A DNA stretch of 22,623 bases from Pinguiococcus pyrenoidosus (lineage: Eukaryota > Sar > Pinguiophyceae > Pinguiochrysidales > Pinguiochrysidaceae). The notes under the pieces are model-generated. The model saw only the letters and a list, made by a program, of their open reading frames with translations, made no database searches and was not told where the DNA came from. A program made the position numbers and the translations under genes. Location of the stretch: the NCBI GenBank assembly GCA_019677205.1, contig JAAMXY010000025.1:1-22623 (forward strand), in the 5' to 3' direction. Shown piece by piece: positions 5,238-17,208 of this stretch. Position 1 is the first letter of the stretch, and each line of letters begins with the position of its first letter.

Positions 5238-5697
5238 TGACCGCAAGGCCTGCGTGAAGCGACGAAGCCTCTGATCTGGTCTGATCTGGTCTGTACACAA
5301 AGCAAGTCAAAGGGCGTCGTGGTCCGGATACTAGATGTGAATCCCTTCCCACGAAGGCGAAGTGGGCCGAGCAAGCGACCGGAGTTTCTTCTTAGTTCGT
5401 GGGCGAGCGCGTTGATACGTCGCGGGCTCGAAAACACTCGATACCGAAAACACTCGGTCCCGAAAACACTCGATCCCGAAAACGCTCGGTCCCGAAAACA
5501 CTCGGTCCCGAAAACGCTCGGTCCCGAAAACACTCGGTCCCGAAAACACTCGGTCCCGAAAACACTCGGTCCCTCGTTCCATTCACGCTGCCAATTGGAT
5601 CGAGGACCACGCCGCAAGGATGTCCGTAGAACATCTTCGCCAGTGAGGCTGCGGCAGACGTCCCACTCGGACCCGTGCTTGTGGCAGGCCGAGCGTG
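5238..5697. other. convergent intergenic region with tandem repeat
   Basis: The 460 bp between the thioredoxin stop and the kinesin stop contain a short CTGATCTGGT duplication (about 5271-5291) and the nine-copy 16-bp array at 5429-5572. Apparent long reading frames here exist only because the repeat lacks stop codons in several frames; I see no gene. Confidence 0.6.
5429..5572 (+). repeat. tandem repeat, nine copies of a 16-bp unit
   Basis: Nine head-to-tail copies of CGAAAACACTCGGTCC with a few substitutions. Units 1 and 3 carry GAT in place of GGT (unit 1 also ends AC rather than CC), and units 4 and 6 have GCTCGG in place of ACTCGG. There are no spacers, so it is not a CRISPR. The unit length is not a multiple of three, and the array sits between two convergent 3' ends. 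It is a minisatellite, probably variable in copy number between strains. Confidence 0.95.
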
Positions 5698-10292: not shown

Positions 10293-10382
10293 ATGGCGCA
10301 GAAACTCACAGATCTGTTTCAGCAGCAGGTTCGTCGGCATTGCGGGACTGGGCTCATCTCATGCACCGTGTCAGAATCCCTA

Positions 10383-10424
<42 letters not shown>

Positions 10425-13422
10425 AAAGTGCTCCGACTCACTGGATGTGTTACTGCGCTCCCATGGTCGTGCACTGCAATGCGTAGAAGGCCAATGAGCC
10501 ATGGGTGTCCGTCGAGTTCTACCCTCCCAGAACTCCAGAGGTACGTAGCGCAGCAACTTCGTCCCTCTGTCTGACTTGGAGAAGAGCAGTCTTCCGCAGC
10601 CCTCTCTAATCGCCGAAACGCTCTGCTGGCAAAGGGCGTCGAGAACCTGAAAGGCCGCATCGAGAGGATGCAGAAGGGGCTCAACCCCGTGTTTGGAGAT
10701 ATCACGTGGGGCGCCGGAGGCTCCACGTCGGAACTGACGCTGGAGCTGAGCAAAGCCATGCAGGACGACTACGGCCTCGTGACCAACATGCATCTCACGT
10801 GCACCAACATGCCGGCGGAGGCCGTCCACACCGCCTTGGAAGAGGCGAAGGCAGCTGGCATCCGCAACATCGTGGCGCTGCGCGGAGACCCGCCCAATGG
10901 CCTCGACGGGGAGTGGACGGCCGTGACCGGCGGCTTCGCGTGCGCTCTGGACCTCGTGAAGTTCATCCGCAAGGAGCACGGAGACTTCTTCAACATCACC
11001 GTGGCCGGCTATCCGGAGGGACACCCCAATGCGCTCAGCAGCGTGGAGGATGACGAGGTGCTGAGCGAGGCCGAGGAACGCCGCGTGGCGTCCGTGGTCG
11101 GCCCCGACGGCGAGAGGACCCGCTGGGTGTGCCGCGACGACGCTTACGCCAAGGAGATGGCCTATCTCAAGGCGAAGGTCGACGCCGGCGCCGACTGCGT
11201 CTTCACGCAGATGTTCCTCGACCCGGAGACCTTCGTAGACTTCCAAACGAACTGCCGCGAGGCGGGCATCAACGTGCCCATCGTCCCCGGGGTCATGTGC
11301 CTCAACGCCTACGGCGGCTTCTGCCGCATGACGAGCGCGTGCAAGACCCGAGTGCCCGAGGTAGCCAGAGTGTCCTCCCTTCGCTGCTGCTCGCGGGCTC
11401 TCGGAAACCCACTAAAGAGTTGCGAAAACATCTGCCCTGCAGGAGCTGCGCCGGAGACTGGACGCAGCCAAGGATGACGCGGATGCCATCAAAGCCGTCG
11501 GCGTCGAGTGGGGAACGCACATCTGCAGGTGAGCGAGCCACGATTCCGACTCAACTGGAACGGTCCTTGGCAGTCTTTGGAGGGTGCCGCTGATGGATCT
11601 CGCCACCTCCTAGACGGGTGATCAAGGCGGGCGTGCCAGGCCTCCACTTCTACACCCTGAACCTGGAGAAGGTGACCTTCGGCATCGTCGAGGCGCTGAA
11701 GCTGGGCGAAGACGTGAGCGCCGCGGAGGAGGACGAAGCACTGATGGCCGCCGGCACGATCGCGGCGGGAGAGCAGCTGCCTCCCGTGGGCGATGCGCTG
11801 GACTACCACGTGGCGGACATTTCCCTCGCCGAGTTCGGGCGCAAGGAGATCGAGCTTGCCGAGCAGGAAATGCCCGGTCTGATGGCGTGCCGCGACGAGT
11901 TCGGCGCCGAGGCCCTTGCTGGCTCCCGGGTCTCCGGCTCGCTGCACATGACGATCCAGACCGCCGTCTTGATCGAGACGCTGGCGGCGATGGGCGCGGA
12001 CATCCGCTGGTGCTCGTGCAACATCTTCTCCACCCAGGACCACGCCGCGGCTGCGGTCGCCCGCGACGGCAGCGCGTCGGTCTTCGCCTGGAAGGGAGAG
12101 ACGCTTGCGGAGTACTGGGAGTGCACCCTGAAGGCGTGCACCTGGCCCGAGGACGACGGCAAGGGCCACGGCCCGGATCTGATCGTGGACGACGGCGGAG
12201 ACCTCACGCTTCTGATCCACGAGGGCTACAAGGCTGAGGTGAACTACGAGAAGTACGGCGTGATGCCGGATCCGGACTGCACGGACAATGCCGAGTTCAA
12301 GATCGTGCTCAGCATCATTGCCCGCGAGCTCCAGAAGGATCCGCAGCGCTGGCACAAGGTGGCTGCTCGCTGCGTGGGCGTCTCCGAGGAGACGACCACG
12401 GGCGTCCACCGCCTGTATCGCATGGAGGAGAAGGAGGAGCTGCTCTTCCCCGCGATCAACGTCAACGACTCGGTCACCAAGTCCAAGTTCGACAACCTCT
12501 ACGGATGCAAGCATTCGCTGCCGGACGGCATCATGCGGGCTACGGACGTCATGCTCGCCGGCAAGCGCGCGGTGGTGTGCGGCTTCGGCGACGTGGGCAA
12601 AGGGTGCGCCCAGGCCTTGAAGGCTGCGGGGTCCGTTGTGTACGTCACCGAGATCGACCCGATCTGCGCGCTGCAGGCCGCCATGGAAGGCTTCCGCGTC
12701 GTGCGGCTCGAGACCGTGCTGAGCGAGGCGGACATCTTCATCACGACCACGGGAAACAAGGGGATCGTCCTTGCTTCTCACATGGAGAAGATGAAGAACA
12801 ACGCCATCGTGGGCAACATCGGGCACTTTGACAACGAGATTGACATGGAGGGCTTGGAGGGCTCCACCAAGCGCATCAACATCAAGCCGCAGGTGAGGAT
12901 CGCTTCGCAGCCCATCCGCACGCACGGAAAGCAACCCAGGCGCTGACTCGTGTGAGCCCCATTTCCAACAAGGTGGACAAGTTCGTCTTCGAAGATGGCC
13001 ATGGTGTGATAGTCCTTGCCGAAGGGCGTCTTCTGAACCTGGGCTGCGCGACGGGTCACCCGTCGTTCGTCATGTCCAACTCGTTTACGAACCAGACTCT
13101 CGCGCAGCTCGAGCTGTGGAAAGAGCGCGAGTCCGGCAAGTTTGCACGCGGCCACGTTTACGTCCTGCCGAAGGAGCTCGACGAGAAGGTATGGAGCGTC
13201 GTTGAGAAGCCTTCGCTGTTGAGATCCGCGATCGCGCGGGAAGCTCCGTGCGTGTTCCTCCTGGGTTTTCATCTCTGTGCTCTTCTTCGTGGAATGCTGC
13301 AGGTTGCCCGCCTTCATCTGGATGCGCTCGGAGTTGAGCTCACGACGTTGAGCGACGAACAAGCCCAATACATCAACGTTTCTGCTTCCGGACCGTACAA
13401 GCCCAGCACGTACCGGTACTAG
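10293..13422 (+). CDS. methylenetetrahydrofolate reductase - adenosylhomocysteinase fusion
   Basis: One spliced gene of 838 residues with two enzymes. Coding exons: 10293-10328, 10487-10540, 10635-11360, 11443-11528, 11614-12892, 12973-13188, 13303-13422; introns are GT-AG (158, 94, 82, 85, 80, 114 nt) and every phase fits. Residues 1-332 are an MTHFR catalytic barrel, which reduces 5,10-methylene-THF to 5-methyl-THF using FAD. Motifs: [65 protein letters not shown] and GLHFYTLN (309-316). A linker rich in Ala and Glu (about 333-362) follows. Residues 363-838 are SAHH, which splits S-adenosylhomocysteine into homocysteine and adenosine. Motifs: [36 protein letters not shown], the plant-type insert before [11 protein letters not shown]-binding [11 protein letters not shown] (Gly624 on), [10 protein letters not shown] and the terminal PYKPSTYRY. 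Exon 5 holds the end of MTHFR, the linker and most of SAHH without interruption. The regulatory domain of eukaryotic MTHFR is missing. No targeting peptide is seen, so probably cytosolic. Confidence 0.93.
10386..10422 (+). repeat. (CT)n microsatellite in intron 1 of the fusion gene
   Basis: An uninterrupted CT run of about 37 nt inside the first intron (10329-10486). It is a pyrimidine tract some 65 nt before the acceptor, so it could influence splicing, but it is most simply a microsatellite. Confidence 0.95.
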
Positions 13423-15931: not shown

Positions 15932-16078
15932 CGAAGTCCGGAAAACCCCCAGATCTTGGGCTCACTATTTTATTAAAAGTTGTTCTTCATTCTTAACGTA
16001 ATGAACATAAATAGATAGATAACTATTGAAGTAAAAATATTTCAATTTATATTGTAAAAATTTATATTATTGGCCACC

Positions 16079-16220
16079 TCAGCGAGAAGGCGGAGAGATC
16101 TCTTTAAGGATCTCTGATCTCCGGATAGACGTTGCTTGTGCCATGACGATCTGAAGCAATGGCAGGCCGTACGTCTCGCTCATTGCCTTGTCCACAAACA
16201 TCATGCTAGGGCCAGGCGTG
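16079..16220 (-). pseudogene. possible orphan terminal exon or gene relic
   Basis: Reading the minus strand from an acceptor-like GCTCAG before 16220, the frame runs about 46 codons to a TGA at 16079-16081. It looks protein-like, with pieces such as MMFVDKAMSETYG and LPLLQIVMAQATSIRR. A good donor, CTTCAG/GTAAGG, lies upstream at 16302-16303, which would give an intron of about 82 nt, but the sequence before it does not read as a convincing exon. I do not recognise a family. It may be the last exon of a small unrecognised gene, the remains of one, or chance. Confidence 0.2.
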
Positions 16221-16429
16221 CTGAGCGACTAAGTCGAGTTCGCGCGACGAATAGAAGGAAGTGAGAGTCGTTCCTTCACAGCAGCTCCTGCACCATCCTT
16301 ACCTGAAGGAACGATGGCGCCAACGCCAAAACCCAAAAATCAGAGAAACAGGGTGAGCGAAAAAAAAAAACCCAATAGTCAGTGAACAGTTTCTATCGCA
16401 GACACAGTCACCCGACCAAAGATGTCGCT

Positions 16430-16448
16430 CCTCTCTCTCTCTCTCTCC
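16430..16448 (+). repeat. CT microsatellite
   Basis: About nine CT units, similar to the CT run in the fusion-gene intron and the GA run in the CELF-like gene intron. Confidence 0.8.
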
Positions 16449-16519
16449 ACCCTCCACACTCTCACACTATGGGGTTGCAAAGTTCAAATTCAAATTTTGG
16501 TTGTGGATCGAGAGAGCAT

Positions 16520-16671
16520 GATTGGACGTCTTTGATTCTTGTGGAAGAATTCGTCCCACGTCTGGGGCCTGGATTGGCCGGCGCGCGGCCTCTGACAGTA
16601 AGTTGAATATTTATTCGGACGAACAACGCGGCCGTCAAAATGGCATCATCGCCATCCCGAGCCTTGATTGG
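16520..16671 (+). promoter_or_regulatory. three GATTGG (inverted CCAAT) elements
   Basis: GATTGG occurs at 16520-16525, 16572-16577 and 16666-16671. They lie about 540-690 bp before the CELF-like ATG and 590-740 bp before the mtHsp70 ATG. The clustering is unusual for a hexamer and suggests CCAAT-box control, but the distance to either ATG is large unless there are long 5' UTRs or untranslated exons. Confidence 0.25.
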
Positions 16672-17208
16672 TCGCCACTGCTTCTACACGCAGCACAAGT
16701 AACTTTCGCCAGGCGTGTGGCGATAGCTGTGATGGGCCTAACGATTTAAAAATTCGTTTTAGAGAAGGATCAGGGTCAGCTTGTGAGCCGCGTGTATGGC
16801 TGGAGTTCATTCAAAAGCCCAAACCATAGTTTTTGAAACTATTCCGTGGCGCTAACGGGGGTGCAAGCTGGCCTCCAAAAACTTTTTGCAAATACTCATA
16901 AAATATTTATATTTTTATGAAAAAATACCCAAATTGTTTACTTGAATAATAAAATATCTCACCAAAACTACAACATAACATTATGAAAATCTGAAGAAGT
17001 CCTGTGAATCCCCTAAATCAAGTTCGGAGCTCCCCTGGCCGCCGCCGCCTATGTCTGTCCGTCACGGTTAAGACCGCCCGTAGTTGTTCGCGGAAGTCTT
17101 TCGATCTGAATCTGTGTGGCCCGGCGTCGCTCCATCTCACTGCGTCGTCGAGAGCGCGGACTCTCTCCACCGCAACTCCAAGGGTGCCGCATCTGCGCGT
17201 CGGGCGCC

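Follow-up and report, generated by a model that had tools for sequence, protein, structure and literature searches.

The window analyzed here, a stretch of 22,623 nucleotides from Pinguiococcus pyrenoidosus that makes up a whole contig (C12) of a 23.7 Mb assembly in 768 contigs, contains on its forward strand a gene (10293..13422) in which the coding sequence of MTHFR is followed, in a single spliced frame, by that of SAHH. Judging from sequence comparison, this gene most likely makes one bifunctional MTHFR and SAHH enzyme, a reading to which we assign a probability of roughly 0.7. The MTHFR-SAHH layout is not unique to the window but is found in other organisms, and belongs to a set of eukaryotic MTHFRs that lack the regulatory domain and carry SAHH, SHMT, a second MTHFR or ADK-SAHH instead. 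What sets the fusion apart is that it originated repeatedly, that the regulatory domain is missing and that alternative partners exist.

Gene model and conservation of the two halves

The best model of the gene extends from an ATG at 10293 to a stop codon at 13420-13422 and comprises 7 exons, all on the forward strand, which are separated by GT..AG introns and, when the window sequence is spliced, join into one frame whose only stop codon is the terminal one, giving a protein of 838 amino acids (91.4 kDa). Exon 1 (10293..10328), which runs from the ATG to a GT donor, encodes 12 residues, with the Pfam match to MTHFR starting at residue 11; exon 2 (10487..10540) carries the MTHFR motif EFYPPRT in the spliced frame; exon 3 (10635..11360) encodes the main part of the MTHFR barrel, and exon 4 (11443..11528) continues MTHFR in frame. 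Exon 5 (11614..12892), which lies within an open frame at 11594-12946, is the junction exon and encompasses the end of MTHFR, the linker and most of SAHH; SAHH continues in frame through exon 6 (12973..13188) and ends in exon 7 (13303..13422), which contains its C-terminus and the stop codon. The introns had been described as keeping phase: all 7 exons do give one frame, but only 5 of the 6 introns are phase 0, with intron 4 departing because exon 4 is 86 nucleotides long. An Rfam scan of the window yielded no matches.

For exon 3, there are three in-frame acceptors, 10587, 10590 and 10635. The first two would add 15-16 residues that are absent in all 8 homologues compared, where the sequence passes from the PPRT motif to a GVENL-like sequence without insertion, as it does with the acceptor at 10635, and the Pfam MTHFR score increases from 307 to 324.8 bits with the latter. 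For these reasons, acceptor 10635 is preferred, and a start of exon 3 at 10587 or 10590 was rejected. With acceptor 10635, the BLASTP score is higher against 4 of the 5 fusion relatives; the exception is P0010, where the reported alignment spans just the SAHH end and the score is 754 vs 755.

Pfam recognizes three co-linear matches in the 838-residue protein, namely, MTHFR at residues 11-329 (6.3e-97), AdoHcyase at 364-837 (4.5e-138) and AdoHcyase_NAD at 595-755 (8.9e-80), and the gap between the domain ends leaves a linker of about 34 residues (330-363; 11699..11800). From GLHFYTLN (11639-11662) to DYHVADIS (from 11801), the sequence stays within exon 5 and meets neither a stop nor an intron. 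Thus, two central statements of the preliminary description, that GLHFYTLN runs on into SAHH in the same exon and frame and that the two enzymes are fused, are borne out at the DNA level. The scores are well above the family thresholds: the MTHFR catalytic domain PF02219 reaches its 324.8 bits against a curated cut-off of 24, and both equivalog models passed, TIGR00677 for MTHFR with 322.2 (cut-off 310.05) and TIGR00936 for SAHH with 581.8 (cut-off 497.6), although these NCBIfam scores were taken on an earlier 854-residue model and only the final Pfam scores on the model of 838 residues.

Human MTHFR (6fcx) and 8uy2, presumably a fungal MTHFR, can be aligned with the MTHFR half on either side of an insert of about 25-35 residues (11028..11144, with approximate limits) that was delineated by alignment with short-form and full-length MTHFRs. 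The SAHH half (11801..13419) is complete, with PF05221, PF00670 and TIGR00936 all above cut-off at full length; it aligns along its full length with 3ond, the closest solved SAHH, which we take to be the plant-type enzyme of lupin. The NAD-binding domain (PF00670; residues 595-755, 12494..13056) is split by intron 5, and the C-terminus reads KPSTYRY; what we take to be the NAD motif, GxGDVGKG, and the C-terminal K..YRY tail are both kept. The earlier claim that the motifs of both enzymes are present is upheld by column counts: the MTHFR half agrees with 77 of 80 near-invariant columns (at least 95% constant in 22 other rows), the departures being F/Y, I/F and L/V, and the SAHH half with 215 of 216 (at least 98% constant in the other aligned rows), the sole departure being I to V. 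GC3 is nearly equal in the two halves (0.86 and 0.87). The preliminary description overlooked, however, that the MTHFR half is short: the SAM-binding regulatory domain, PF21895, is absent from the fusion protein according to Pfam.

Related proteins and origins of the fusion

The homologue lists comprised the best 120 of 7999 or 8000 proteins scored per search, and the architectures of the 219 proteins listed were re-scored. Among these matches listed, MTHFR is located upstream of SAHH in 35, including 26 MTHFR-SAHH proteins, 7 with the regulatory domain between MTHFR and SAHH, and 2 MTHFR-ADK-SAHH proteins (P0010 and P0011), in which an adenosine-kinase-like domain separates the halves; the middle domain of P0010 matches a solved adenosine kinase with an E value of 6e-115. 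The remaining proteins listed are 47 MTHFR-SHMT, 7 tandem MTHFR-MTHFR, 4 MTHFR with the regulatory domain and without SAHH, 2 MTHFR with no such partner, and 124 SAHH alone. MTHFR coverage in the 35 listed fusions is at least 250 of 335 residues in 21, 150-249 in 5 and below 150 in 9, the latter being fragments with an MTHFR stub. The fusion sequences are already present in databases, several of them under the source name adenosylhomocysteinase.

The closest relative listed, P0007, shares the layout of the window protein (65% in the region searched, 74% over the whole) and has a linker that, by eye, resembles that of the window. MTHFR followed by SAHH, the architecture for which a search had been proposed at the outset, is also present in transcriptome-derived proteins of Prymnesium parvum (P0016, taxid 97485) and Haptolina brevifila (P0018, taxid 156173, with a label beginning 'Chryso'); Prymnesium and Haptolina are haptophytes by label. 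The listed MTHFR-SHMT proteins include those of Symbiodinium (P0038) and Polarella as well as truncated labels ending in 'Dinoph' and 'Heteroc', and in P0080, NDK is located upstream of MTHFR. The insert, which follows AGYPEGHP, is common to the short-form MTHFRs printed or aligned, and was not seen in 4 full-length MTHFRs (P0082-P0085) or in the regulatory-domain SAHH fusion P0024.

We built an MTHFR tree of 48 rows, which included the window along with 41 of the 95 proteins listed as carrying MTHFR, and a SAHH tree with 22 of the 35 listed fusions, 21 of the 124 listed free SAHHs and 2 sequences from the genome of the window. Nine rows were cut from the first SAHH tree, namely, 8 free SAHHs and P0156, an extreme outlier of which the cut piece is probably not SAHH. 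Of the sets compared below, the window group and the haptophyte and dinoflagellate-like sets were named once the trees had been seen, whereas those of all fusions and of short-form SAHH fusions were defined by architecture.

In the MTHFR tree, the window groups with P0007 (100/98) and next with P0009 (96/80); the haptophyte-type fusions, together with P0080, form a separate set (100/100); P0012 and its kin sit inside a clade (100/100) made up of MTHFR-SHMT proteins and tandem MTHFRs; and the regulatory-domain SAHH fusions fall outside the short-form clade (97/93). With the MTHFR half, AU tests rejected a single clade of all 21 SAHH fusions (p = 0.002), a single clade of the 16 short-form ones (p = 0.006) and a clade uniting the window group and the P0012 set (p = 3e-6), so that one ancient fusion behind all cases was rejected. 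A clade of the window group with the ADK-SAHH fusions was not rejected by the MTHFR half (p = 0.213), nor was one with the haptophyte fusions (p = 0.133), which the SAHH half does reject (p = 4.7e-5). Free SAHHs are interspersed with the P0012 set in the SAHH tree, and each of the six such free SAHHs that were inspected starts with its own methionine. Overall, the trees support at least three origins of the SAHH fusion on the MTHFR side; for single sets, a swap of partners after fusion, instead of a fresh fusion, may account for the pattern. The SAHH link was made on more than one occasion, in one case to a full-length MTHFR, and its repetition suggests that joining both enzymes benefits the cell. 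Algae and other protists have repeatedly made this join, a probably bifunctional fusion of one-carbon enzymes, and usually it replaces the control domain found in other eukaryotic MTHFRs.

Within the 23.7 Mb genome, MTHFR was found in the fusion gene alone, and a second, free-standing SAHH with its own start is located on another contig (C531). Therefore, the fixed 1:1 ratio of the two enzymes envisaged earlier would not apply cell-wide. The fused and free SAHHs are 84.6% identical (pN 0.105, pS 0.46), and with a dN/dS of 0.16, the pair as a whole appears to be under purifying selection. At polarised sites, the fused copy shows 18 private changes and the free copy 4, which allows for weaker constraint on the fused SAHH. 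In the best SAHH tree, the free copy pairs with the fused SAHH of P0007 (99/79), not with that of the window, and the alternative pairings of the three were not rejected (p = 0.449 and 0.407), such that gene conversion, duplication or refusion may each lie behind these relations.

Proposed function and its alternatives

MTHFR makes 5-methyl-THF, and SAHH turns SAH into homocysteine and adenosine in a reversible reaction; methionine synthase consumes 5-methyl-THF and homocysteine, and SAH inhibits methyltransferases. In the proposed scheme, the MTHFR half would use FAD and NAD(P)H to reduce 5,10-methylene-THF to 5-methyl-THF, and the SAHH half would use NAD+ in hydrolyzing SAH, which yields homocysteine and adenosine. 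Because methionine synthase consumes both 5-methyl-THF and homocysteine, the two halves would feed both substrates of this enzyme (MetH) while clearing the inhibitor. The link between methyl supply and SAH removal drawn in the preliminary description is therefore a sound reading, but the shared end point, methionine synthase, had been missed. The genome contains a match to PF02965 of the B12-dependent methionine synthase MetH; no match to PF01717 of the B12-independent MetE was found in it by a search that was positive in 10 of 14 control genomes. The MTHFR-ADK-SAHH fusions fit the bifunctional reading because ADK would also remove adenosine. We infer that the two halves are co-transcribed as one mRNA, that both activities are present and that supply is coordinated.

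The MTHFR half is a short form, in which the SAM-sensing, dimerising regulatory domain was lost or never present, and SAHH, occupying the place of this domain, probably provides the oligomeric core and might also be a source of new control. Accessible sections of the plant literature report a homodimer for plant-type SAHH (PMC7765604) and native SAHH complexes that look tetrameric (PMC7367456), and a tetrameric core is plausible for the fusion. The latter source, in the same sections, also states an interaction of SAHH with ADK in plants, yet the two did not co-migrate in native gels. For the fusion, a dimer or tetramer centered on SAHH, with the MTHFR lobes attached to it, and release from SAM inhibition would be expected.

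A farther-reaching possibility is that, in several protist lineages, the tethered SAHH has assumed the functions of the regulatory domain, holding the MTHFR subunits together and, through its ligand-driven opening and closing, making MTHFR respond to the level of SAH or adenosine, while free SAHH performs the bulk of the hydrolysis. As described in the available portions of recent papers, eukaryotic MTHFR carries the regulatory domain and dimerises through it (PMC13001107), and in the human enzyme, this domain senses SAM and SAH, with SAM being inhibitory (PMC11018872). The position of SAHH in the fusion corresponds to that of this domain in other eukaryotes, and both the presence of a free SAHH on C531 and the faster change of the fused copy would fit such a division of labor. 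Nevertheless, the fused SAHH retains all but one of its near-invariant columns, and 7 of the 35 listed SAHH fusions retain the regulatory domain, so that SAHH is not always a substitute. We consider this takeover unlikely; if it were true, methyl supply would be switched by catalytic removal of SAH rather than by binding to an allosteric domain.

The bifunctional reading also has to be weighed against a neutral fusion, that is, two genes of the same pathway joined by accident and kept without gain. This MTHFR clade has several partners among the matches listed (SHMT in 47, MTHFR in 7, SAHH in 26 and ADK-SAHH in 2, as well as the upstream NDK of P0080), which could mean that the MTHFR C-terminus is permissive. 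However, most of the partners are enzymes of the folate and methionine cycles, and the SAHH fusion was repeated, given the rejection of one origin for both the 21 and the 16 rows, which makes a purely accidental join improbable.

It is highly improbable that two proteins are made, with SAHH either released by cleavage or expressed from a start or promoter of its own within the linker. The linker does contain one methionine (residue 345), and visual inspection shows one at a similar place in P0007 as well as in the P0012 group, but similar methionines are present in MTHFR tails without SAHH behind (P0005, P0006), so that this residue need not be a start; the one 2A-type pattern tried gave no match, and the genome already has a separate SAHH gene. 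An assembly chimera or a gene model that merges two neighbors, conceivable insofar as there is a single assembly, was rejected, given that the junction is located within one exon, in frame and without gaps, and that independent proteins from other sources share the order and a similar linker. Together with the domain scores, these independent proteins of the same layout exclude chance as well.

Comparison with known systems and genomic setting

The catalytic domain of the fusion is the same as that of eukaryotic MTHFR (6fcx, 8uy2, TIGR00677), from which the fusion differs in the absence of PF21895, the presence of SAHH in its place and the insert. Similarly, the match to SAHH/AhcY (3ond, TIGR00936) is full-length, including the NAD domain and the C-terminal tail, but, unlike the usual stand-alone SAHH, the fused one bears MTHFR at its N-terminus. 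The dinoflagellate MTHFR-SHMT proteins (e.g., P0038 of Symbiodinium) belong to the same short MTHFR clade and likewise have a one-carbon enzyme at the C-terminus; the SHMT partner gives methylene-THF, the substrate of MTHFR, whereas the SAHH partner gives homocysteine. The bacterial bifunctional homocysteine S-methyltransferase/MTHFR (NCBIfam NF006396) likewise links MTHFR to an enzyme of the methionine cycle, but has the methyl acceptor enzyme rather than SAHH as the partner, and the fusion protein matches the MTHFR part only, and weakly (50.7 vs a cut-off of 453).

In Proteobacteria, metF is found in an SAH-riboswitch ahcY operon in 6 of 7 lineages, according to the relevant part of PMC4239095; there, the same two enzymes are made together, but as separate proteins, with coupling at the RNA level. 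This precedent is limited to some lineages because, when the 80 prokaryotic SAHH loci closest by sequence were examined, an MTHFR gene was found near SAHH in only one (L027), or in 1 of the 49 loci with both 5-kb flanks.

No description of an MTHFR-SAHH fusion was found in the open-licence literature, and the fusion is apparently undescribed so far. To this extent, the preliminary description was right that no enzyme of this layout has been described, but 35 of the 219 matches listed share it. In the portions available, the 'fusion' of PMC3942190 denotes a cob-cox3 transcript of the mitochondrion and a protein of the plastid, with MTHFR and SAHH in separate rows of an EST table; in PMC5557254 and PMC6381741, the word belongs to the title of a paper on a read aligner; and PMC4920855 deals with human disorders and contains no MTHFR-SAHH fusion. 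Neither 'fusion' nor 'fused' appears in the accessible text of a 2026 MTHFR article (PMC13001107), and 'fusion' and 'MTHFR' are absent from a 2026 SAHH article (PMC13406329). The fusions offer natural constructs for examining a physical coordination of methyl supply with the removal of SAH, as well as the operation of SAM feedback in MTHFRs that lack the regulatory domain.

Regarding the remainder of the genome, searches for the regulatory domain PF21895, run without a positive control, gave no match. PfkB-family kinases, a family that includes adenosine kinase, are encoded elsewhere in the genome. The rbcL gene on contig C750, presumably of form ID, has as its nearest named matches listed, at 88% and after two 100% entries, those of ochrophytes (raphidophytes, Olisthodiscus). 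By this gene, the source is an alga with a red-type plastid and probably an ochrophyte, from a lineage that has no close named rbcL among the matches listed. The two 100% matches come from EukProt, under the labels Lingulodinium polyedra and Karenia brevis, and are probably contaminants.

SAHH fusions carrying a further domain

Several of the listed protein relatives of the fusion join MTHFR to SAHH together with an additional domain. P0010 and P0011 (1170 and 1169 aa, respectively) are MTHFR-adenosine kinase-SAHH triple fusions, so that, judging from the domain content, a single protein would unite three methyl-cycle steps that are linked to one another. In P0024-P0031, except P0026, the order is MTHFR, regulatory domain, SAHH; because the regulatory domain is retained before SAHH, SAHH is an addition to it in these proteins, not a replacement.

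Other partners of MTHFR and the bacterial neighborhood

MTHFR-SHMT fusions account for 47 of the 219 matches listed (P0032-P0076, P0078 and P0079), several of them with dinoflagellate labels, and a literature search yielded no paper on these fusions. Tandem MTHFR-MTHFR proteins are represented by P0001-P0006 and P0008, the last of which was left out of the MTHFR tree. In this tree, the two MTHFR halves of P0005, and likewise those of P0006, are each other's kin; the first halves of P0001-P0004 cluster separately from the second halves. P0080, a short MTHFR (lacking the regulatory domain) with a nucleoside diphosphate kinase domain upstream, clusters with the haptophyte-type MTHFR-SAHH fusions.

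Among 80 prokaryotic SAHH loci, an MTHFR gene closely follows the SAHH gene in only one, L027, from a Phycisphaeraceae bacterium.

Repeats, composition and organelle genes

In the window, a 16-nt unit is repeated in an array of about 9 copies (5429-5573), with long open frames on both strands. A (CT)18.5 repeat lies within intron 1 of the fusion gene (10386-10422). The region 15976-17000 is AT-rich and contains none of the listed frames; GC content is 0.447 at 16001-17000 vs about 0.60 in the surroundings.

In the source genome, rbcL (contig C750, locus L007) has two identical EukProt entries among the matches listed, one labelled Lingulodinium polyedra and the other Karenia brevis; the likely cause is a contaminant shared by these two transcriptomes. 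On contig C741 (locus L006), a long frame continues from mitochondrial cox1 and, by eye, resembles an intron reverse transcriptase.
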